Virus record (IMG/VR): IMGVR_UViG_3300021519_000027
Coordinates: 1 to 35,430 of that record
Length of the DNA: 35,430 nt
Source of the DNA: a virus
Strand: one strand, 5' to 3'
This document shows, in pieces, positions 144 to 35,430 of this stretch (the stretch's first letter is position 1; every line of letters begins with the position of its first letter). The position numbers and the translations under genes are program-made. The notes below the pieces were generated by a model. That model was not told where the DNA came from. It did no database searches and saw only the letters and a list, made by a program, of their open reading frames with translations.

Positions 144-172
144 TTGCATTGTTAAGTTGGCTTAACTAAACT
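144..172 (+). promoter_or_regulatory. Early promoter with palindromic operator in the spacer
   Basis: A sigma70-like promoter is visible: -35 TTGCAT (144-149), a 17-base spacer, and -10 TAAACT (167-172). The spacer holds the perfect palindrome GTTAAGTTGGCTTAAC (151-166). The same TTAAG-N4-CTTAA core sits in the spacers of the promoters at 32647-32675 and 31410-31438. It would drive the genes from 209 to 1242. A repressor bound here would block RNA polymerase directly. Confidence 0.75.
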
Positions 173-208
173 GGAAGTACTCAATAACGAGTGAGATAGG
201 AAAAACAA

Positions 209-418
209 ATGACAACAGCTACAAAAATCAAAAAAGGCCCATTTATTGGGTCAGCTTACGAAGGCAACACATTGCTAGATATTCATGGCTACGATGGTTA
301 CTTTGAAGAAATCTACATTGCAGGTACAGATATTGATGTTACCGAAATGATCCACAGTTTGACAAAAATCTCCTTTGACAAGTTTGAAGAAGATTCCCGT
401 GTACAAATGTTTGGTTAA
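209..418 (+). CDS. Hypothetical protein, 69 aa
   Basis: This is a small soluble acidic protein of 69 residues that I do not recognise. It has no signal peptide, membrane segment or cysteine motif. The start ATG follows an AGGAAA ribosome-binding site at a normal distance and lies about 35 bases below the -10 box of the operator-bearing promoter at 144-172. It is therefore the first gene of the second rightward early segment and probably made early. The next gene starts 11 bases after its stop, so the two are likely co-transcribed. The coding call rests on start, RBS and spacing, not on family recognition. Confidence 0.75.
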   Translation: MTTATKIKKGPFIGSAYEGNTLLDIHGYDGYFEEIYIAGTDIDVTEMIHSLTKISFDKFEEDSRVQMFG

Positions 419-428
419 GGAGAAAATA

Positions 429-740
429 ATGAAAGACTTTATCGGAAGTTGTTTATTAGGGGCTTTGTTAGGTTGTATGTTTGCATACGGTGTACCAGCT
501 AAAGCGCAGTCTTATACAATGACCAATCCCCAAGGCTATAACATGGGTACGGTTCAGATACAGGGCAATACAGCCCAGTTTGTAAACCCGATGGGCTACA
601 CAACTCAGACGGCCACAATCTACCCTAATCAAATTGTTATTACCAGCCCTAGCGGATATACCCAAAGCGTTGTAGGTAACGCTGGCTACACAGTACCGAT
701 GTCCCCACCATCACCACCAAGCCCAAGGGTGTTGCAATGA
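429..740 (+). CDS. Secreted repeat protein, 103 aa
   Basis: The start at 429 is preferred over an upstream in-frame ATG at 375 because a strong AAGGAG site lies just before it and the 375 start would overlap the previous gene. The N-terminus is a classical Sec signal peptide: a lysine, a hydrophobic stretch (residues 5-20), and an AKA cleavage site near residue 25. The mature part has three approximate repeats of about 20 residues, each opening with N/S-P-x-G-Y and followed by Thr/Gln/Val-rich beta-type sequence. It ends in a proline-serine tail. It is predicted to reach the periplasm. A role in superinfection exclusion or envelope change is possible but unproven. Its stop overlaps the next start (ATGA). 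Confidence 0.8.
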   Translation: MKDFIGSCLLGALLGCMFAYGVPAKAQSYTMTNPQGYNMGTVQIQGNTAQFVNPMGYTTQTATIYPNQIVITSPSGYTQSVVGNAGYTVPMSPPSPPSPRVLQ

Positions 741-1057
741 AACAAATGACCGATTACGAAATGATGAAGAACGGTGATTACATCATTAGCTATGCCCCGC
801 AAGCTAGAAATAGCGATCCCTATACATCGCATTTTGCAGCAAAGGCAATGAACCCGTCAGCCCATTACGCTTTAATCATTGATGCTTTAAAGATTTCAGC
901 AGCAGGCAAGACTTTGATTGCCAAAAGATCAGGATTGCATCATGGTCAAGTAGCTAGAAGATTGACTGAATTGGAAAGAAGTGAAGTTATTGGCTTAACT
1001 GGCAAAACTGTTAAAAGCGATTCTAATCGCCAAGAAAGGGAATGGTATCTACTATGA
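737..1057 (+). CDS. Winged-helix DNA-binding-like protein, 106 aa
   Basis: The middle and C-terminal part (about residues 45-95) reads as a small helix-turn-helix or winged-helix domain: helices ending in ALKISAAGKT, then IAKRSGLHHGQVARRLTELER as the HTH core, then a short wing ending in WYLL. The N-terminal part contains a DPYTSHFAAKAM segment often seen at the front of phage proteins of this type. It overlaps the preceding gene by ATGA and the following gene by ATGA, so it is translationally coupled within the early operon. It could be a transcription regulator of later genes. The fold call is fairly firm; the target is unknown. Confidence 0.8.
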   Translation: MKQMTDYEMMKNGDYIISYAPQARNSDPYTSHFAAKAMNPSAHYALIIDALKISAAGKTLIAKRSGLHHGQVARRLTELERSEVIGLTGKTVKSDSNRQEREWYLL

Positions 1058-1242
1058 GTACAAGATCAAGAGGAATGGTTGGCAAGACTTACAGATCGGT
1101 TTCAGAGGCGTTCAAAGATGCTGACTATGCTACCGCCATACAAAGACCCGAATCGTCTGATTTCAGTGGTTTTGGTGCGTTCTGTGGGGGATTGTTGTTC
1201 TTAGTTGTTTTTGGATATAGTTTTTGGAGAACAATCTCTTAA
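1054..1242 (+). CDS. Small single-pass membrane protein, 62 aa
   Basis: I place the start at 1054, where ATGA overlaps the stop of the previous gene; an in-frame ATG at 1042 would add four residues. The N-terminal 40 residues are polar and basic, and a hydrophobic segment (FGAFCGGLLFLVVFGYSFW) near the C-terminus should span the inner membrane once. No family is recognised. It is the last gene of the rightward early operon, and its stop codon overlaps the stop of the convergent endolysin gene. It could act at the host membrane, for example in exclusion or in timing of lysis; this is inference. Confidence 0.65.
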   Translation: MSTRSRGMVGKTYRSVSEAFKDADYATAIQRPESSDFSGFGAFCGGLLFLVVFGYSFWRTIS

Positions 1243-28729: not shown

Positions 28730-28855
28730 TTACTTACCAGTCTTATAAAAGTCTTTTAAAGTAGATACAACTGCGTTGTACCAAAACTCATACATCTGCT
28801 TGGTGCGTTCTGTTACTTCTTCTAACTGCTTGTACTGCTCATCAAATGTAAACAT
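28730..28855 (-). CDS. Small phasin-like helical protein, 41 aa
   Basis: The protein is one or two amphipathic helices (FTFDEQYKQLEEVTERTKQM, then YEFWYNAVVSTLKDFYK). The composition and the aromatic W/Y positions resemble short phasin-like proteins, but no firm family can be claimed at 41 residues. An AGGAG site precedes the ATG at 28855. It is the last gene of the leftward early operon and ends next to the hairpin at 28708-28727. Confidence 0.65.
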   Translation of the reverse strand: MFTFDEQYKQLEEVTERTKQMYEFWYNAVVSTLKDFYKTGK

Positions 28856-28894
28856 AGCAATCTCCTATTAAATGTTGTATTGCACCATTTTACA

Positions 28895-29038
28895 TTATTT
28901 AGCCAGTATGTAAAGCCCAACATTAGAAAAAGCGTAGCCTGTATATACAACTGCCATAGGCATATTACCTTTAAATCCTTGTTCTATACCTATATAGGCA
29001 TAAATTGCGCCAGTAACAATAATTAGCCAACTACTCAA
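28895..29038 (-). CDS. Small membrane protein with TTG start, 47 aa
   Basis: The frame starts with TTG at 29038, overlapping the stop of the HNH gene (TTGA). A GGAG site lies a suitable distance upstream. It encodes two hydrophobic segments (SSWLIIVTGAIYAYIGIEQ and a second near VVYTGYAFSNVGLYIL). It is probably inserted in the inner membrane. No family is recognised. Confidence 0.65.
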   Translation of the reverse strand: MSSWLIIVTGAIYAYIGIEQGFKGNMPMAVVYTGYAFSNVGLYILAK

Positions 29039-29310
29039 GATTCCATCTCCAAAAGCTTGTCCTCAAGGTCAAAACCCCAGTATGCTTTAAATGCTTTAGC
29101 CCCAAGTCCGTGAATACTGGTATGTGGATCATGTCGATGATGGAAGGCGCATAAGGGGACTGCTGGAGCGTTATCTCGCTTTCCCCCGTAGCGTCTAATG
29201 TGATGGATTTCGACTGGGGTGTCATTGTCGATGTATCCCAAATGCCTGCATAAAACGCAGCCGTGTCGTGCCAACTTCGCATAATGATCCTTTTGGGCCT
29301 TACTTGCCAT
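29035..29310 (-). CDS. HNH nuclease, Ref-like
   Basis: The start at 29310 (MASKAQKDHYA) is preferred over a longer form from TTG at 29322. The protein has CVLCRHLGY, then PVEIHHIRRYGGKRDNAPAV, PLCAFHHRHDPHTSIHGLG, which contain the paired Cys and HNH histidines. The C-terminus (GLGAKAFKAYWGFDLED) is typical of Ref, the RecA-dependent nuclease family of phages. It lies in the early operon and overlaps the 57-aa gene by 11 bases upstream and the next gene by 4 bases. Confidence 0.85.
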   Translation of the reverse strand: MASKAQKDHYAKLARHGCVLCRHLGYIDNDTPVEIHHIRRYGGKRDNAPAVPLCAFHHRHDPHTSIHGLGAKAFKAYWGFDLEDKLLEMES

Positions 29311-29473
29311 TAATGTAATCAACTGTCAATTGTTCTAGTTTTTCAGCAGATTCTGCAATGTCTACGCTTAATTCAAGCATCTGTGTAGGGTTTGCAGATT
29401 TAAGTGATTCGTCAAACATTTTGCATAACAATCTAAGGATTAAAAATTCTTCTGTTACTTTTAATGTGGTCAT
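29300..29473 (-). CDS. Hypothetical helical protein, 57 aa
   Basis: The protein is mostly helical and acidic (KVTEEFLILRLLCKMFDESL, then QMLELSVDIAESAEKLEQL). It has no motif I recognise. It overlaps the 110-aa gene upstream by 4 bases and the HNH gene downstream by 11 bases, so the three are translationally linked. The ATG at 29473 is the only good start. Confidence 0.65.
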   Translation of the reverse strand: MTTLKVTEEFLILRLLCKMFDESLKSANPTQMLELSVDIAESAEKLEQLTVDYINGK

Positions 29474-29802
29474 TTCAATATCCTATCGTGAGTGCGGTTT
29501 GATACTTCTAAAGTTTGCCAAGTGGCATGACGCAAACGAGCAGCTTCCAACAGCCACTTGAGTTTTTCAGCATTTTCTGTTGCCTCGCCAATTGCTTTGC
29601 ATAAATTTTGATAAGCCTCGCTCCGATAAGCTTCTCTCTCTTGCGCTCCAAGCGATTGCTCCGAAGTTTCAGCCATTTTGATCGCTTTAAGCGAACTTTT
29701 ATACGCTTCAAGTTGCGCCAATTCACCTTTTGCTTGAGCATATTTACCTGCGTTTTCAAGAATAAAATCTATACATTGGTTGGGGTCTATCTCTCTTGTC
29801 AT
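29470..29802 (-). CDS. Hypothetical coiled-coil protein, 110 aa
   Basis: The sequence is almost entirely charged helix (ENAGKYAQAKGELAQLEAYK to LCKAIGEATENAEKLKWLLEA), with a possible long coiled coil over residues 15-90. The KLKWLLEAARLRHATWQ part is common to small phage proteins of this kind. No enzyme motif is seen. It overlaps both neighbours by 4 bases in the early operon. Confidence 0.75.
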   Translation of the reverse strand: MTREIDPNQCIDFILENAGKYAQAKGELAQLEAYKSSLKAIKMAETSEQSLGAQEREAYRSEAYQNLCKAIGEATENAEKLKWLLEAARLRHATWQTLEVSNRTHDRILK

Positions 29803-30350
29803 TTTATATTCTCACAGATTTCTGTCATAAATTTAATTAAAGCATCAGGGGTATATTCTCTTTGATACTGGGTACAACGCTTAGTTCCTTTGACATTGCC
29901 ACATATTGAACGATCTGTATTTGCATTGTTTTTTGGTGGCAATTCAGGCAAATCTTCAATTTTTATACCGCAAACATACAATTTAGTATTTTTATGAGCC
30001 ACATGACCAAAATCAAATTGGTCAATAAGCATAGTAAAGCCACCAAATTTATCATATCCAGCACCAAGTTCAGGGCATCCAGCTTCTCTAAAAAACCTGC
30101 TACTTTTTGGGTGTTCTAATACGCCACCATTTTTACGAACTTTATCTAATGCAAACCAAGCCAAATCTTTTTCATCAGGTCTTGGGTTGGCCATGTGACT
30201 TAACATTCCCCATGCTCTGCAAGGCGGGTGAGCAATAACAGGATAGTTAGCATTAAAACTTCTAGCATCACGGTCAATGTCATAAACATCGTACCCCCCC
30301 CCAATTTCTTTGTATCTACTATCTTTTCTTGCAAATAACACAGCAATCAT
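29799..30350 (-). CDS. DNA C5-methyltransferase-like protein, 183 aa
   Basis: The sequence has AHPPCRAWGML (residues 40-50), which resembles motif IV (PPC) of C5-methyltransferases, and GGVLEHPKSSRFF, which resembles the motif VI (E-x-P) region. However the S-adenosylmethionine motif I and a target-recognition domain are not evident, so it may be a degenerate or divergent member. Residues 17-19 are encoded by nine consecutive G (30294-30302). The gene overlaps its neighbours by 4 bases on both sides. Activity in the phage cannot be judged from sequence. Confidence 0.65.
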   Translation of the reverse strand: MIAVLFARKDSRYKEIGGGYDVYDIDRDARSFNANYPVIAHPPCRAWGMLSHMANPRPDEKDLAWFALDKVRKNGGVLEHPKSSRFFREAGCPELGAGYDKFGGFTMLIDQFDFGHVAHKNTKLYVCGIKIEDLPELPPKNNANTDRSICGNVKGTKRCTQYQREYTPDALIKFMTEICENIK

Positions 30351-30490
30351 TTTCCTAATCTCTTTTTTATAAGCATCTTCATGCGTTCTTCTTTTTCAGG
30401 GTACTGCGCTAGTAAACGCACTACTTCAGGCCAGCCACGCTTTTTTGCTACTGCAATGTACCAACTTACAAGGTAATTATCAGGATTCAA
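30347..30490 (-). CDS. Small basic protein with TTG start, 47 aa
   Basis: The frame starts with TTG at 30490 within the end of the preceding gene (11-base overlap). Its TGA overlaps the ATG of the methyltransferase-like gene (ATGA). The protein is basic and helical (NPDNYLVSWYIAVAKKRGWP, then RLLAQYPEKEERMKMLIKKR). No family is recognised. A clear Shine-Dalgarno is missing, so translation probably depends on coupling to the gene upstream. Confidence 0.6.
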   Translation of the reverse strand: MNPDNYLVSWYIAVAKKRGWPEVVRLLAQYPEKEERMKMLIKKRLGK

Positions 30491-30851
30491 CTTGCTTTAT
30501 CTTTTGGCTGATCCTTGATCTTAACGCTTGCCAGCCTTCACCAGCATAGGGAGTTACCCCTATTTCTTGGGCTTTTTTCAAAGTTAGTTCTTCTGTAGCG
30601 TAGAACGGTAGTTCAGGTTTCTTGAGTGGCTCAATGTCAATTTCGTCAGTCCAGCGTTCTTGGTTTAAAAATGTAGCAGGGTATGGAATGAAATCTTTAG
30701 CGGTTTCCTTGACCTTCCAATACTTCAAGTAGTTAGGCATGGCTTCAATGCACTCTAGTTGCTGGTCAGGGGTAAGCTTATTCCAAGCTTTTTCCGCATC
30801 CTTACGGGCCATCTTACGGGGGTATAAACCATAAAAAACAGCAAATGTCAT
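30480..30851 (-). CDS. Phage replication-type protein, 123 aa
   Basis: The protein opens with FAVFYGLYPRKMARKDAEKA, then WNKLTPDQQLECIEAMPNYL, and has DFIPYPATFLNQERWTDE. This is the C-terminal pattern of phage replisome organisers that bring the host helicase to the origin (the YPRK and PATFLNQ-RW motifs). It lacks the N-terminal DNA-binding domain such proteins can carry, so it is short. It overlaps both neighbours (4 and 11 bases) in the early operon. The role is inferred from pattern. Confidence 0.72.
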   Translation of the reverse strand: MTFAVFYGLYPRKMARKDAEKAWNKLTPDQQLECIEAMPNYLKYWKVKETAKDFIPYPATFLNQERWTDEIDIEPLKKPELPFYATEELTLKKAQEIGVTPYAGEGWQALRSRISQKIKQVES

Positions 30852-30997
30852 TTTTCTTGAATCTTTCCGTAAATTTTTAAAGTAAGTTTTAAAACATACT
30901 GGATGTCGTTAAGGCTTAATTGACCCATCAATTGCAGTATTTTAATTACCGCAATGTCGTTGTCTAACGGCTGGGATTTAATTGGAGTTTCAATCAT
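30848..30997 (-). CDS. Hypothetical protein, 49 aa
   Basis: A helical protein with no clear motif (IAVIKILQLMGQLSLNDIQY, then VLKLTLKIYGKIQEK). The start ATG at 30997 overlaps the stop of the 61-aa gene upstream (ATGA), and its TGA overlaps the next start (ATGA). Small and coupled, so it is probably real; function is unknown. Confidence 0.65.
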   Translation of the reverse strand: MIETPIKSQPLDNDIAVIKILQLMGQLSLNDIQYVLKLTLKIYGKIQEK

Positions 30998-31179
30998 TTT
31001 CTTTTGTTTTTAGAAATAGGAAAAGCAACTTCGTCAATTTTGTATTTATTAGAACCTTTTTTAATCAAAGCAATCAATCCCCATTGCACAAGGACTTCAA
31101 GTCCTTCTTTATCAAAATCAACCAAAGCATTAGCAGAGCCATCTTCGTTTTCTTTAATTATCTTTATTTGTATTTTCAT
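30994..31179 (-). CDS. Hypothetical protein, 61 aa
   Basis: The start at 31179 (MKIQIKIIKENEDG) is preferred over a TTG start at 31188. The protein mixes short beta strands and helices (ALVDFDKEGLEVLVQWGLIA) with a basic end. No family is recognised. It overlaps the next gene by 4 bases and lies within the end of the 75-aa gene upstream by 26 bases. Confidence 0.65.
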   Translation of the reverse strand: MKIQIKIIKENEDGSANALVDFDKEGLEVLVQWGLIALIKKGSNKYKIDEVAFPISKNKRK

Positions 31180-31381
31180 TGTTTGCAAACTTTATAATAG
31201 GTTTATCAAGGGCAAGTTTAGCTAATTCAATATAACGATCTACTTCTAGCCTATCTTCCCCACCAATAGAAGCTCTACTATGAGCAACAGGCTTACCCAT
31301 GTTGTCGTAATAGACTTCACGGATTTCAAAGTAATCCTCGTAAGGATTGCACATATTTACTAATCGTAGATTCCAAGTCAT
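31154..31381 (-). CDS. Hypothetical phage protein, 75 aa
   Basis: The start at 31381 (MTWNLRLVNMC) has GGAG six bases upstream; a TTG at 31393 would give four extra residues. The sequence has a beta-type front (EDYFEIREVYYDNMGKPVAH) and a helical back (EVDRYIELAKLALDKPIIKF). Proteins of this shape are common in phages but have no known function. It is the first gene of the leftward early operon, just below the operator-bearing promoter at 31410-31438. Confidence 0.75.
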   Translation of the reverse strand: MTWNLRLVNMCNPYEDYFEIREVYYDNMGKPVAHSRASIGGEDRLEVDRYIELAKLALDKPIIKFANNENTNKDN

Positions 31382-31409
31382 AACAGACTCCAAAGGTTAA
31401 TCTAGGTGA

Positions 31410-31438
31410 AGTATATGTTAAGTGAACTTAATAGTAAA
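31410..31438 (-). promoter_or_regulatory. Early promoter (minus strand) with palindromic operator in the spacer
   Basis: Read on the minus strand there is a -35 TTTACT (31438-31433), a 17-base spacer and a -10 TATACT (31415-31410). The spacer contains TTAAGTTCACTTAA (31431-31418). The palindrome shares its arms with the operators at 151-166 and 32659-32672. It would drive the leftward early operon starting at 31381, with the RBS GGAG about 20 bases below the expected start of RNA. Confidence 0.75.
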
Positions 31439-31479
31439 TATTTTTTATTATCGTTGTTTTTTAGACATAGGTTGCCCAA

Positions 31480-31826
31480 AGGTGATAGCACCCCATCCAT
31501 TCAGGATGTGTCCCGAACTAATGCTCCCGAAGGTAATGTTCAATCGATATAAGGTTGTCTGTCACCATTGTCCTTATAACTTGTGCTGTACCCATTTAAG
31601 TCAGCGCGGCTTGCTATCAGGTGTAAATCAGCCGATGTTCTATTCCACGCCACCCAGTTAGGTGCTTGTTATCGTATGGAGTACGGCAGAAATAGAAAAA
31701 CCCCTTGGGGCTGATCTAAGGTGAAGTTGCTTAATAAATGCCCATAATTCCATTTAGTAAACACTCAGATCAGTCCGAAAGGGTCTTAGACTATGGGTGG
31801 TGCTAAACAGACTTCACTCTGCCCCG
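31480..31826. other. Gene-free structured interval (candidate non-coding RNA or regulatory region)
   Basis: No convincing gene lies between 31382 and 31826. On the plus strand, TGATAGCA (31483-31490) pairs with TGCTATCA (31612-31619), enclosing CATCC/GGATG and TATAAGG/CCTTATA stems. Further on, GGGGC (31707-31711)/GCCCC (31821-31825), GTGAAGT (31721-31727)/ACTTCAC (31811-31817) and GCCCATA (31740-31746)/TATGGGT (31792-31798) are nested. CTGATCT next to the first arm can pair across them with AGATCAG (31766-31772), giving a pseudoknot. A CC-GAAA-GG turn is also present. The strand is not decided. A decayed gene is the main alternative. Confidence 0.5.
31689..31786 (-). terminator. Extended helix with T-run after the glycosyltransferase gene
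   Basis: On the minus strand, 31786-31764 and 31720-31698 can pair over 23 positions with two mismatches and some wobble pairs. The loop is 43 bases. A T-rich run (TTTTTCTATTT) begins at the 3' side of the helix. This could end the transcript of the DUF5672-type gene before the operator region. The long loop makes it less typical than the terminator at 12214-12245. Confidence 0.5.
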
Positions 31827-32378
31827 CTAGTATAACCCAAGTCTTTCAAAATTAAAATCCCCGTGAAAGCCAAAAGTTTTAATATTTGACAGTTCACGCT
31901 CAAAACTAAAGTATCTAGCCAGTTCTTCAGGGGCAAACCGTATACCCTGATTTTCAAGAAAAACCCTGTTTAAATGGCAAATTTGGTCATCTTCATTATG
32001 ATCTGTATATACAAAGTCAGGGCTGGCAGTTAATTCACAAAGCTGCCTTGAGCGTAGGCTAAAGCCACCATTGCCGACCCGTCTACCCATAGGATGCCAA
32101 GGCCATACTGCCCCAATATAGTCATAATCTAAAAATGTAGGATGCCAAGCGTCAGGGTTAATAATGAACCCATCCCATTGCACAATTAAAACAAAGTCCG
32201 TATGGATGTGTTTATGCAATTCCTGAAGGATAAATTTGCTGTAAGCTTGCCGCGAATGGATGCCTTGATCTATAAAGACTTCCCCGCCAAATTTAAAGTA
32301 TTCCTTGCACCTGTCCATTGCTTTTTTAGCTTTGTCAGGCTGCACCGAATCAATACAGCACAGGGTGATATTTTTCAA
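31827..32378 (-). CDS. Glycosyltransferase-like protein, DUF5672 type
   Basis: The protein (183 aa) contains YSKFILQELHKHIHTDFVLI, VQWDGFIINPDAWHPTFLDY, DYIGAVWPWHP and VGNGGFSLRSRQL, the conserved pattern of the DUF5672 family, which is related to glycosyltransferases. It probably transfers a sugar to a phage or host molecule, possibly nucleic acid or envelope. It overlaps the Cro-like gene by 4 bases and ends just before the structured interval. It is the second glycosyltransferase in this small genome. Confidence 0.85.
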   Translation of the reverse strand: MKNITLCCIDSVQPDKAKKAMDRCKEYFKFGGEVFIDQGIHSRQAYSKFILQELHKHIHTDFVLIVQWDGFIINPDAWHPTFLDYDYIGAVWPWHPMGRRVGNGGFSLRSRQLCELTASPDFVYTDHNEDDQICHLNRVFLENQGIRFAPEELARYFSFERELSNIKTFGFHGDFNFERLGLY

Positions 32379-32605
32379 TCGAGTTCAGGCCATATCATTT
32401 TGTAAGAAAACGGAAAAAGCACTTTTCTTGACCATAAGCCGTGGCTTTCTTTCTCCAGCGTGGCAGCTAGGATCACCAGCTTGTCATAGGGGATTACCCC
32501 ATTTTGCCACATTGATACGGCTGGAACGCTTACACCTACTAGGTTTGCTACTTTTGTTGGGCCACCTAGTAGCTTAATCATCGTGCGTGTTGAAGTATTA
32601 TCCAT
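32375..32605 (-). CDS. Cro/YdaS-like helix-turn-helix regulator, 76 aa
   Basis: Residues 9-55 form a helix-turn-helix domain of the Cro/YdaS type: IKLLGGPTKVANLVGVSVPA, then VSMWQNGVIPYDKLVILAATLE. The rest is a hydrophobic and aromatic C-terminus. It would bind operator DNA as a dimer. The palindrome TTAAG-N4-CTTAA lies 54-67 bases upstream of its start and again at two other promoters, so it is the prime candidate for the shared repressor. No CI-like protease partner or integrase was seen. It overlaps the glycosyltransferase gene by 4 bases. Confidence 0.85.
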   Translation of the reverse strand: MDNTSTRTMIKLLGGPTKVANLVGVSVPAVSMWQNGVIPYDKLVILAATLEKESHGLWSRKVLFPFSYKMIWPELD

Positions 32606-32610
32606 AAGCT

Positions 32611-32638
32611 ATCTTAACATTTTTGCAACATTTTTCAA
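32611..32638 (-). promoter_or_regulatory. Possible promoter of the Cro-like gene
   Basis: On the minus strand TTGAAA (32638-32633) and TAAGAT (32616-32611) are separated by 16 bases. The expected RNA start is at about the annotated ATG (32605), so either the message is leaderless or the true start codon is further inside (32581). This call is tentative. Confidence 0.4.
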
Positions 32639-32646
32639 ATAAAGTA

Positions 32647-32675
32647 TTGCAATCCTATTTAAGTTGGCTTAATAT
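32647..32675 (+). promoter_or_regulatory. Early promoter with palindromic operator overlapping the -10
   Basis: A -35 TTGCAA (32647-32652), a 17-base spacer and a -10 TAATAT (32670-32675) form a strong sigma70-like promoter. The palindrome TTAAGTTGGCTTAA (32659-32672) lies in the spacer and overlaps the -10 by three bases. It drives the rightward early operon beginning at 32716. Confidence 0.8.
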
Positions 32676-32715
32676 CTAAATACGGCATAAGCCGTGTAAA
32701 TTAGGAGAAACTCAA

Positions 32716-32919
32716 ATGAGTGAGCAAGAGCAAGACTTCAACAGCTTCCAAGAACATTTGGAACGCATCTTTAAAGACCTCGAAGATGGGGTATTTATTA
32801 CAGCAGATGAAATTGGTGACCTACGCTATGCGTGTGGATTGCCATCCCCTGTACGCAAAAACCCTGTATTAAAAGCAGTCTTTGATGATTTTTCAACTAT
32901 TTTTAGGAGCAAGCAATGA
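32716..32919 (+). CDS. Hypothetical acidic protein, 67 aa
   Basis: This small acidic protein has a helical front (EQDFNSFQEHLERIFKDLED) and a second helix (ADEIGDLRYACGLPS). An AGGAG site precedes the start at 32716. It is the first gene after the operator-bearing promoter and ends with an ATGA overlap into the ParB-like gene. It is likely produced early, but its function is unknown. Confidence 0.75.
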   Translation: MSEQEQDFNSFQEHLERIFKDLEDGVFITADEIGDLRYACGLPSPVRKNPVLKAVFDDFSTIFRSKQ

Positions 32920-33710
32920 ACCCACAATTTCAGACTGTAACGCCTGAAATGGCAAAGGGTTATTTATTAAAAAATACAGATAACCGCAACAAGAGAGGTT
33001 GGTGGGTTTCAGGACTTGCCAATATGATTAAGCGTGGCGAGTGGATTCCTACTCATCAAGGCGTGGCATTTTCTCAATCAGGCAAGTTATTAGACGGCCA
33101 ACACCGTTTAGAAGCCATTATTGAAGCCAACATTCCAGTACAAATGATGGTTACTACTGGGGTTCGCGATGATGCGTATAAAGTTTTAGACAATGGTATT
33201 AAGCGTACATTAGCTGACCTTACTGGTATTAGCCAAAGAACTGCTGAAGTGTGCCGTGTATTGGCTAGATTGGCTTATGGTGGCGATACGGTTACCAGCG
33301 CAGACCAAATCATTGATATTTACAACACGGGTGTCGGTGAAGTTCACGATAACTTGGTTGAATATTGCGGCAAAAGCATAGCCGTATTATCTTCTGCGCC
33401 TATCAGGACTGTAGCTACTTGTATGATCCTTGACGGCCATAACCAGCAGTATATAAAAAATATATACGCCAACTTGTGCCACCAAAAGTTTAACGAATTG
33501 CCTAATGTTGCACAGTCTTTTATTCGTCAAGTAAGCGATAAAAGGGCTACGGTAGGTAATCGTTATGACCTTATGGCTAGGGTATTAAAAGTGTTTGATT
33601 CGTCTATCAAGGACACAACAAGGCTTACAGTAAGTGATTCAGATGCGTCAGCAGCAACAGCGTATTGCCGTAATGTAGTAAGAAAACTATTAACTAAGGA
33701 AAGCAAATGA
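32916..33710 (+). CDS. ParB-like protein, 264 aa
   Basis: The segment GWWVSGLANMIKRGEWIPTH, then GVAFSQSGKLLDGQHRLEAI, with the DGQHRLEA block at about residues 60-67, is the signature of ParB/sulfiredoxin-like domains found in phages. Downstream helices (about residues 100-260) have no clear match. Such proteins may bind or cut DNA or use nucleotides. It overlaps both neighbours by 4 bases and sits in the replication-type early operon together with the SSB-like and nuclease genes. Confidence 0.78.
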   Translation: MNPQFQTVTPEMAKGYLLKNTDNRNKRGWWVSGLANMIKRGEWIPTHQGVAFSQSGKLLDGQHRLEAIIEANIPVQMMVTTGVRDDAYKVLDNGIKRTLADLTGISQRTAEVCRVLARLAYGGDTVTSADQIIDIYNTGVGEVHDNLVEYCGKSIAVLSSAPIRTVATCMILDGHNQQYIKNIYANLCHQKFNELPNVAQSFIRQVSDKRATVGNRYDLMARVLKVFDSSIKDTTRLTVSDSDASAATAYCRNVVRKLLTKESK

Positions 33711-34321
33711 TTATTTCAGATAACAGTAAAGAATTTAAAATAGCCCCAGCAGGTAACCACATGGCTCGTTTGTACTCGGTCATTGACCTAGGGCATCAGG
33801 CTACCGAATGGGCTGGCGAAACCAAAATCATGCACAAAGTCGTATTGACTTGGGAATTGCATGGTAAAGACGATAACGAGCAACCATTAACTACGGATGA
33901 CGGCAAGCCGTTAATTGTTTCTAAGCGTTATACCGTAAGCCTCGGAGAACAGGCAAGATTGCGTCAAGACTTAGAGGCATGGTCTAACAAGAAGATGACC
34001 GCAGAAGATCGCAAGAATTTTGACCTTAAAAACTTGCTAGGGAAATTTTGCATGGTAAATATTACACATAGCGAAGATGGTAAGTATGCCAATATTTCAG
34101 GCATCAGCCCTGTACCGTCAGCACTTCGCGCCCACCAACCTGAAGGTATTAACGCCCCAGTTCATTTTTGGTTAGCAGAATTTGACCAAGCAAAGTACGA
34201 TGCGTTGCCTAAGTATTATCGCGAAAAGATTACGGAATCAAGCGAATGGCGTGGTCAGAAGGCTAAAGATGAAAACAAAGTAACTATTGAAGATAGCGAC
34301 TTATCGGATATACCGTTTTGA
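33707..34321 (+). CDS. Single-stranded DNA-binding-like protein, 204 aa
   Basis: The protein is beta-rich in its first 150 residues, with patterns such as HKVVLTWELHGKDDNEQPLT and KPLIVSKRYTVSLGEQARLR. The C-terminus ends DSDLSDIPF, the acidic, hydrophobic tip that SSB proteins use to recruit partners. It lies between the ParB-like gene and the PD-(D/E)XK nuclease, so it likely coats single strands during replication or recombination. The C-terminal tip is the strongest evidence; the core fold is inferred. Confidence 0.78.
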   Translation: MIISDNSKEFKIAPAGNHMARLYSVIDLGHQATEWAGETKIMHKVVLTWELHGKDDNEQPLTTDDGKPLIVSKRYTVSLGEQARLRQDLEAWSNKKMTAEDRKNFDLKNLLGKFCMVNITHSEDGKYANISGISPVPSALRAHQPEGINAPVHFWLAEFDQAKYDALPKYYREKITESSEWRGQKAKDENKVTIEDSDLSDIPF

Positions 34322-34515
34322 TGAAAGCATTTCCTAATGGTGAATTTTCAGAAAATCAAGGCATGAATTTGCGTGATTATTTTGCGGCTAAAGTTATGCA
34401 AGGAATTATTAGCGCAATTGGTAATAAATTTGTTGAAAAACCTGATTATTTAGAAATTTCAAAAGAATCTTATAAATTTGCGGATGCAATGATGAAAGCT
34501 AGAAATGATAGTTAA
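34321..34515 (+). CDS. Hypothetical protein, 64 aa
   Basis: The start at 34321 overlaps the stop of the SSB-like gene (TGATGA); an in-frame TTG at 34318 is an alternative. The protein has NQGMNLRDYFAAKVMQGIIS and ESYKFADAMMKARND, a pattern common in small phage proteins next to recombination genes. It overlaps the nuclease gene by 11 bases. Function is unknown. Confidence 0.72.
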   Translation: MKAFPNGEFSENQGMNLRDYFAAKVMQGIISAIGNKFVEKPDYLEISKESYKFADAMMKARNDS

Positions 34516-35266
34516 AGAAAAGTTAGCAGAAAGTGGCCATTGGTATACAAGGCAAGGTACGCCTGCCTATACCACCATCGGTAAAACTGGGGAAAGACCT
34601 ACGACTTTGCGTGATGCAAGGAAAGAAGGGCTTTTGCCCAGCACTACCACCATCATTAACATTATGTCCAAAGCAGGGTTGGATACTTGGAAACAGCAAC
34701 AGGTCTTATTATCCGCTTTAACGCTGCCTAGAGAGCCACAGGAGAGCGAACAAGAGTGGTTGGCTAGGGTTATGAAGGACAGCCGAGAAACGGGCTATCA
34801 AGCCGCTAATCGGGGCACGGCAATTCACGGCATTATTCAGAACTGGTTTGAGCAGGTGTATATGCCTGAAAAGCCTTTGTACCTTGATGCTATTGATAGC
34901 ACTCTTAAAAGTGCTTTTGGAGAGCAGCCTTGGCTTTCCGAGAAGTCTTTTGCTCATCCCTTGGGTTACGGTGGTAAATGCGACTTAATGGCTAAACCTA
35001 TCAACGGTCAGGGAACGGGCTTTGTGCTTGATTTTAAGACTAAGGATACCGATTTAGACAAGGTTGATGTATATTTTGAGCATGAACTACAGTTAGCGAG
35101 CTATCGTGAAGGCCTAAATTTGCCCAACGCTAGGTGCGCCATTGTGTTTGTCAATGGCACGACTAACCAAGTAAAATTAGTAGAAATAGAAGAATCCAAT
35201 CTCCAAAAGAGTTGGGATTGCTTCCAGCACTTGTTAAGGGTCTATCAGATCAAAAACAACTTGTAG
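34505..35266 (+). CDS. PD-(D/E)XK nuclease, RecB/YqaJ-like
   Basis: The protein (253 aa) has the core of a RecB-type nuclease: GYGGKCDLMAK (with D160) and GTGFVLDFKTKD (D176-x-K178), followed by ELQLASYREGLN. This matches phage-encoded exonucleases for recombination or repair. It is the last gene of the rightward operon before the terminal repeat region. Translation starts within the end of the previous gene (11 bases). It probably works with the SSB-like protein. Confidence 0.9.
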   Translation: MIVKEKLAESGHWYTRQGTPAYTTIGKTGERPTTLRDARKEGLLPSTTTIINIMSKAGLDTWKQQQVLLSALTLPREPQESEQEWLARVMKDSRETGYQAANRGTAIHGIIQNWFEQVYMPEKPLYLDAIDSTLKSAFGEQPWLSEKSFAHPLGYGGKCDLMAKPINGQGTGFVLDFKTKDTDLDKVDVYFEHELQLASYREGLNLPNARCAIVFVNGTTNQVKLVEIEESNLQKSWDCFQHLLRVYQIKNNL

Positions 35267-35292: not shown

Positions 35293-35430
35293 GTACCCCG
35301 CCCTTTTTAGGGCGTTAAGCCGCCAATGTAGGATGCAGTAAGTTAGGGTTTTTGCGGCTTTCCACCTAACAGCTAATAACTGCCAAATACAGCCCAAATT
35401 TATTTTTAATTTTGTTGTTTTTTTGCTAAA
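35293..35430. repeat. Terminal direct repeat, right copy
   Basis: These bases repeat the left end (1-137) with one substitution and one extra T in the outer 11 bases. A perfect hairpin CGCCCT-TTTT-AGGGCG (35299-35314) is present here, while the left copy has a broken base pair and a shorter loop. The window therefore ends in the same sequence it started with, and the segment 35267-35292 plus the repeat forms the gene-free junction. Confidence 0.95.

Follow-up and report, generated by a model that had tools for sequence, protein, structure and literature searches.

The Cro protein of phage P22 acts at the P22 OL and OR operators. Two of these, OL1 (TTAAGACTTCTTAA) and OR3 (TTAAGTCATCTTAA), match the palindrome TTAAG-N4-CTTAA exactly in the P22 sequence and OR1 differs from it by one mismatch; the numbering OL1, OR3 and OR1 within the annotated P22 OL and OR stretches is our assumption. 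The operator co-crystallized with P22 C2 was reported as CATTTAAGATATCTTAAATA (PMC9976882). A text search of the P22 literature for a published TTAAG operator yielded nothing useful. In the cryptic prophage CP-933P, the Cro analogue YdaS counters the CI analogue PaaR2; four palindromes lie in one intergenic region, from which the half-site GTTTAGTAA was reported; that work did not determine the precise YdaS sites (PMC8630535). Recognition-helix residues of Cro proteins correlate with operator half-sites, according to the account of this work given elsewhere (Hall, Lefevre and Cordes 2005, cited in PMC4997575). In Cluster A mycobacteriophages, one repressor serves dispersed stoperators; these number about 30, are asymmetric and 13 bp long, halt elongation and diverge along with the repressor (PMC6550527).

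Cro control, P22-type operators, helix/half-site correlations and repressors diverging with dispersed sites are already known. Two features of the locus described here are new: in this phage group, Cro stands alone and has three predicted operators that are single and dispersed, and between two sister groups (groups I and II) helix and putative operators have switched cleanly together.

We analysed a stretch of 35,430 nt (the window), a 35.4-kb freshwater virus record of IMG/VR. Its locus resembles P22 C2/Cro in the operator core, in the Pfam family of Cro and in the position of the candidate operators on early leftward and rightward promoters. It differs in that P22 has three clustered operators at each of OL and OR, plus the C2 repressor and integrase, whereas the window has single sites at three separate promoters, including that of a third, rightward unit, and none of the window proteins scanned was C2-like. 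The likeness to YdaS lies in the family matches of the relatives, and YdaS is the second-best match to the predicted fold of the window Cro, with an E value above the usual limit; moreover, GTTTAGTAA contains TTTAG, the arm found in group II. The YdaS/PaaR2 region differs in having a CI analogue, four palindromes in one region and another arm spacing. As in the lambdoid correlations, helix residues and half-sites change together, but the lambdoid operators are clustered, whereas the sites described here are kilobases apart, changed together and belong to uncultured phages. One repressor, dispersed sites and their joint divergence are also shared with Cluster A phages, although here there are three symmetric sites at promoters.

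Palindromes and putative promoters of the window

The palindrome TTAAG-N4-CTTAA and the promoters proposed around it are arranged as follows.

32647..32675, plus strand: putative promoter A, in front of the rightward early operon, TTGCAA-17-TAATAT, proposed from its sequence and its geometry in relatives
31410..31438, minus strand: putative promoter B of the leftward operon, TTTACT-17-TATACT, with the -10 box conserved in relatives and the -35 box not
144..172, plus strand: putative promoter C, in front of the second rightward segment, TTGCAT-17-TAAACT
32659..32672, no strand: candidate operator A, TTAAG-TTGG-CTTAA, its right arm overlapping the -10 box
31418..31431, no strand: candidate operator B, TTAAG-TTCA-CTTAA as read on the minus strand
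152..165, no strand: candidate operator C, TTAAG-TTGG-CTTAA, within the spacer
32611..32638, minus strand: putative cro promoter, TTGAAA-16-TAAGAT, its -10 box ending 5 nt before the ATG

The motif search of the whole window found exactly three exact copies, all of them intergenic, which bears out the earlier impression from the sequence-only reading that there is no other TTAAG-N4-CTTAA. Dinucleotide-preserving shuffles of the window (n = 1000) contained a mean of 0.129 copies and none of them reached three. TTAAG was also the sole arm of a 5-N4-5 palindrome with three copies in the window. One-mismatch copies were at chance level (7 vs 3.0 expected, not significant) and only exact palindromes were therefore counted. 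The one-mismatch copy at 32604..32617, which covers the cro -10 box and start, was considered as a fourth operator and rejected: its second arm drifts in relatives, and the TTAAG arm is kept in group II, which has another operator, and is there simply the cro -10 box. This copy is probably not an operator. The other one-mismatch matches in the window were rejected because of their chance-level number.

The boxes of all three promoters are separated by exactly 17 bases, as had been claimed. The claim that the promoters share the same build, with the palindrome inside the spacer, holds for 144-172 and 31438-31410 (minus strand) but not for 32647-32675, where the palindrome (32659-32672) extends three bases into the -10 box (32670-32675). 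This overlap is kept in 43 of the 46 distinct site-A sequences of relatives, and at site C the palindrome of the relatives stays wholly between the -35 and -10 boxes. The boxes of the window are weak (7-9 of 12 consensus bases) and a promoter scan of the window listed the minus-strand pair alone. Better boxes occur in relatives: TTGACA-17-TATACT at site C in several of them and, in the sister group with the Cro helix SQAAVTHW, TTGACA-16-TAAAAT at site A. The site C boxes of relatives shift by one base relative to the palindrome with the 17-base spacing unchanged. The promoter assignment, the window boxes being weak, relies mainly on these relatives.

The message from pRM that encodes lambda cI is leaderless. 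The cro promoter of the window is likewise divergent, and its -10 box ends 5-6 bases before the ATG in relatives of both Cro groups. Since the -10 box is so near the ATG, the cro mRNA is predicted to be leaderless as well, and it probably is.

The Cro-type protein and its genomic setting

The gene map around the three promoters contains the following features.

32375..32605, minus strand: cro, encoding a 76-aa helix-turn-helix protein, predicted repressor of the P22-Cro/YdaS type
32716..35266, plus strand: rightward early operon under promoter A, a small protein followed by the products given below
28730..31393, minus strand: leftward operon under promoter B, replication-initiation-like, HNH-type and small proteins
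209..1242, plus strand: segment under promoter C, small proteins, the first gene of which varies among relatives
32682..32695, plus strand: hairpin ACGGC-ATAA-GCCGT where transcript A is expected to start, conserved in relatives
178..193, plus strand: hairpin TACTC-AATAAC-GAGTG, starting no more than one base from the expected start of transcript C
35310-35395, plus strand: structured RNA of about 86 nt just before promoter C, repeated at about 18-103 through the overlap of the window ends and present in many relatives

The Cro protein of the window, with the recognition helix S26-V-P-A-V-S-M-W33, matched the Pfam family P22_Cro over 36 of 60 profile positions (E 3.7e-7), its 30.2 bits just reaching the gathering score (30.2). 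Its match to YdaS_toxin gave 19.9 bits and stayed below the cut-off of 30. All 34 aligned Cro relatives matched both models at E<=0.01, the matches to the YdaS model reaching E 6.7e-12. The window protein also belongs to PHROG 35, transcriptional repressor. Its predicted structure is all-helical (pLDDT 89.7), and the best PDB matches to it were Xfaso1 Cro, YdaS (CP-933P), N15 Cro and P22 Cro, with probabilities of 0.91-0.99 but E values of 0.08-0.34, above the usual limit (>0.05). By these family assignments, the 76-residue protein is a predicted P22-Cro/YdaS-type repressor and, by comparison with OL1 and OR3, the palindrome is the putative core of a P22-type operator.

The reading of the three promoters as heading two early operons and the second segment of the rightward one agrees with the gene map, A being rightward, B leftward and C in front of the rightward segment. 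The Cro/YdaS-like gene had been placed next to one promoter, and cro (32375-32605, minus strand) indeed sits between B and A. The operon under A encodes the small protein, a 264-aa protein (phrog_5931), a 204-aa protein (phrog_862), a 65-aa protein and an exonuclease. The ends of the window are near-copies of one another (1-137 and about 35293-35430); promoter C at 144-172 thus comes directly after the rightward operon, which continues past the right end, and the order from this operon to site C is unbroken in relatives. A winged-helix-like protein (weak match) is encoded at 737-1057.

The arrangement of a lambdoid cI/cro immunity region, with a divergent CI-type gene and clustered OR operators, was not found: opposite cro lies a gene for a 67-aa protein without a family match, and the cro intergenic region holds one exact palindrome. 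Neither a CI-type nor a C2-like gene was present among about 20 non-structural proteins scanned. The statement that the phage has no integrase stands for these proteins, which are part of the gene set. The terminase is closest to those of HTVC010P-type pelagiphages and Rhodoferax phage P26218 (about 41-43%), and no named phage matched the first 20 kb of the window at the DNA level. When the terminase was compared with the genomes of 84,980 bacterial and archaeal species, a single distant match (37% identity) emerged, and no prophage of the group was seen.

The stem of the transcript C hairpin varies on both sides among relatives in a compensatory manner (CUC/GAG, CUG/CAG, CUU/AAG). These start-site hairpins possibly protect the 5' ends of the transcripts. 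The 86-nt RNA is composed of a closing helix GGGC/GCCC and a hairpin GCAGT..GTTAGG/CCTAAC..ACTGC, often followed by a T run; in 27 sequences 97.5% of cells were paired, with 41 double changes. The putative pseudoknot AAGCCGC x GCGGCTT is invariant and is unproven because this helix never varies. Neither the window nor any of five relatives had an Rfam match at the gathering score, and lax matches looked like chance.

Two further elements were noticed near these promoters. A noncoding stretch of roughly 390 nt upstream of promoter B (about 31440-31826, minus strand) folds better than shuffled sequences (z -3.15) and falls into at least two sequence families among relatives. A second dyad, TAGGG-N5-CCCTA or AGGG-N6-CCT-like, precedes the candidate operators C and B by about 18-22 bases in many relatives of all Cro groups (e.g. 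L027, L044 and L070 upstream of C; L012 and L052 upstream of B) and is absent from the window. This dyad may be the site of another regulator.

Palindromes and recognition helix in relatives

The IMG/VR search with the window Cro protein provided 80 loci, which contained 211 exact TTAAG-N4-CTTAA copies vs 1.6 expected; at least one was present in 79 of the 80, and the runner-up palindrome of the same build occurred 21 times. The copies lie at A, 67-69 bases upstream of the cro start, at B, mostly 640-2000 bases downstream of cro, and at C, about 1800-2700 bases upstream of cro. The arms alone are constant, and the central four bases take 31 forms, as would be expected if the bound dimer ignored the centre. 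All records of at least 20 kb with a Cro at least 72% identical carry 2-4 motifs. Relatives thus have 2-4 exact copies per near-complete genome, at promoters, rather than copies at random density within genes, the outcome that the sequence-only reading had named as contrary to its proposal, or the many sites inside transcription units typical of a stoperator-type system. Two relatives (L006 and L010) have the variant TTAACCTAGCTTAA at site A with a Cro 93-96% identical to that of the window, which counts against the assignment of the palindromes to Cro.

Among records whose terminase is 82-84% identical to that of the window, the identity of Cro ranges from 93% to 50%, which suggests that Cro and the putative operators diverge apart from the rest of the genome. 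Two large records with terminases in this range lack TTAAG-N4-CTTAA, and their Cro proteins are just 58% and 50% identical to that of the window. The first of them (L177) has the recognition helix SQAAVTHW vs SVPAVSMW in the window. Its promoter A matches the group of the window in the downstream gene and leader hairpin, and its palindromes read TTTAG-N4-CTAAA at B and C and TTTAG-ATAA-CTTAA at A. A search with this Cro collected 19 loci of the SQAAVTHW type (group II).

The 85 loci of group I, with the helix SV[PA]AVSMW, contained 219 TTAAG-N4-CTTAA and no TTTAG-N4-CTAAA, whereas group II contained 34 TTTAG-N4-CTAAA, distributed over 19 of 19 loci, and one TTAAG-N4-CTTAA, the loci being related, so that the counts are not independent and the switch of helix and palindrome may represent one or a few evolutionary events. 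With near-duplicate loci removed, the TTAAG:TTTAG ratio was 123:0 in 48 group I loci and 1:27 in 15 group II loci. The group II sites occupy the same three promoters as those of group I. In L180 and its relatives, the promoter A boxes, the leader hairpin and the downstream gene remain alike. One group II locus (L187) is a mosaic, with the TTTAG type at A and B and the lone TTAAG type of this group at C. What makes the test strong is that sites at promoters separated by one to a few kilobases changed together. This pattern indicates coevolution of one predicted repressor with three dispersed candidate operators.

In a third Cro group (helix APPAVTQW), neither the TTAAG nor the TTTAG motif was present, and a search for enriched dyads and repeated 11-mers as its palindromic operator gave no clear winner. 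Sites A and C of this group share AACAAAACTTAATT, which was spotted by eye and is an unproven lead. Like the site-A variant of L006 and L010, this group counts against the assignment of the palindromes to Cro, as do the weak boxes of the window, the missing conservation of the -35 box at promoter B and the E values of the structure matches.

Proposed circuit and its alternatives

The three palindromes are very probably operators of the Cro protein encoded at 32375-32605, which is predicted to bind them as a dimer and to shut down the early units in a coordinated way. The proposal that a repressor bound at the palindrome switches the three units together gains support from the coevolution of helix and palindromes and from the P22 operator core. 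With the sites, their conservation, the tie to the Cro type and the joint change of the helix computed, we infer Cro binding, repression and timing as follows. On infection, the host polymerase would start transcription from B (leftward), A (rightward) and C (second rightward segment), while Cro, made from its own divergent and apparently leaderless promoter, would build up. A Cro dimer would then bind TTAAG-N4-CTTAA at each of the three promoters and cover the -10/-35 region, so that RNA polymerase would be blocked; repression is the expected effect because the candidate operator lies on the core promoter. The accumulated Cro would turn down all three units together, like lambda or P22 Cro in lytic growth.

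Explaining the palindromes as chance repeats in AT-rich intergenic DNA would be in keeping with the chance level of one-mismatch matches, but is already refuted by the shuffles and by the excess of copies in relatives, and its probability is negligible. That they are instead RNA or DNA hairpins, acting as terminators or replication signals, is highly improbable: 5-bp arms are able to pair, but the palindromes are AT-rich, they precede the expected transcription start, and their position relative to the -10 and -35 boxes is fixed; RNA hairpins are present separately at the expected +1. A host regulator or another phage protein might bind the palindromes, with Cro merely a neighbour. Many bacterial regulators bind AT-rich palindromes, many relatives have the second conserved dyad (AGGG-N-CCT type) ahead of B and C, and the winged-helix-like protein at 737-1057 would be a candidate binder; nevertheless, the sites track the recognition helix of Cro (219:0 vs 1:34) and the motif is the P22 operator core next to a protein of the P22-Cro family, which leaves this explanation improbable.

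A further alternative concerns the role of the same circuit and overlaps with the explanation that we prefer. Cro might do more than brake lytic growth: as an immunity repressor, it might keep the phage quiet in a carrier or pseudolysogenic state and set the immunity groups apart. The scanned proteins include no separate CI-type gene, the cro promoter is divergent and apparently leaderless, like that of lambda cI from pRM, and groups I and II differ in their operators as heteroimmune phages do (compare PMC6550527). Against this stand the size of the protein, 76 aa without a CI-type C-terminal domain, and the fact that the scans turned up no sign of an integrase, of partition or of a prophage, the search of the 84,980 genomes having given the single distant terminase match. 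We consider it rather unlikely, though clearly less so than the foregoing alternatives, that a stand-alone Cro without CI is the immunity repressor of integrase-less freshwater podoviruses, with its helix and three operators swapped together. If this were true, immunity groups would exist within a lineage thought of as lytic, their members otherwise sharing a genome, and the mosaic locus would be a recombinant caught between groups I and II.

With Cro as the predicted repressor of all three promoters, the two groups represent a natural experiment in which a transcription factor changed jointly with several binding sites that are not linked to one another. Groups I and II are ready-made pairs of protein and putative operator which could be tested in vitro without culturing phage or host. 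The locus thereby provides a predicted early-gene circuit for uncultured freshwater phages whose terminase is about 42% identical to that of HTVC010P-type pelagiphages.
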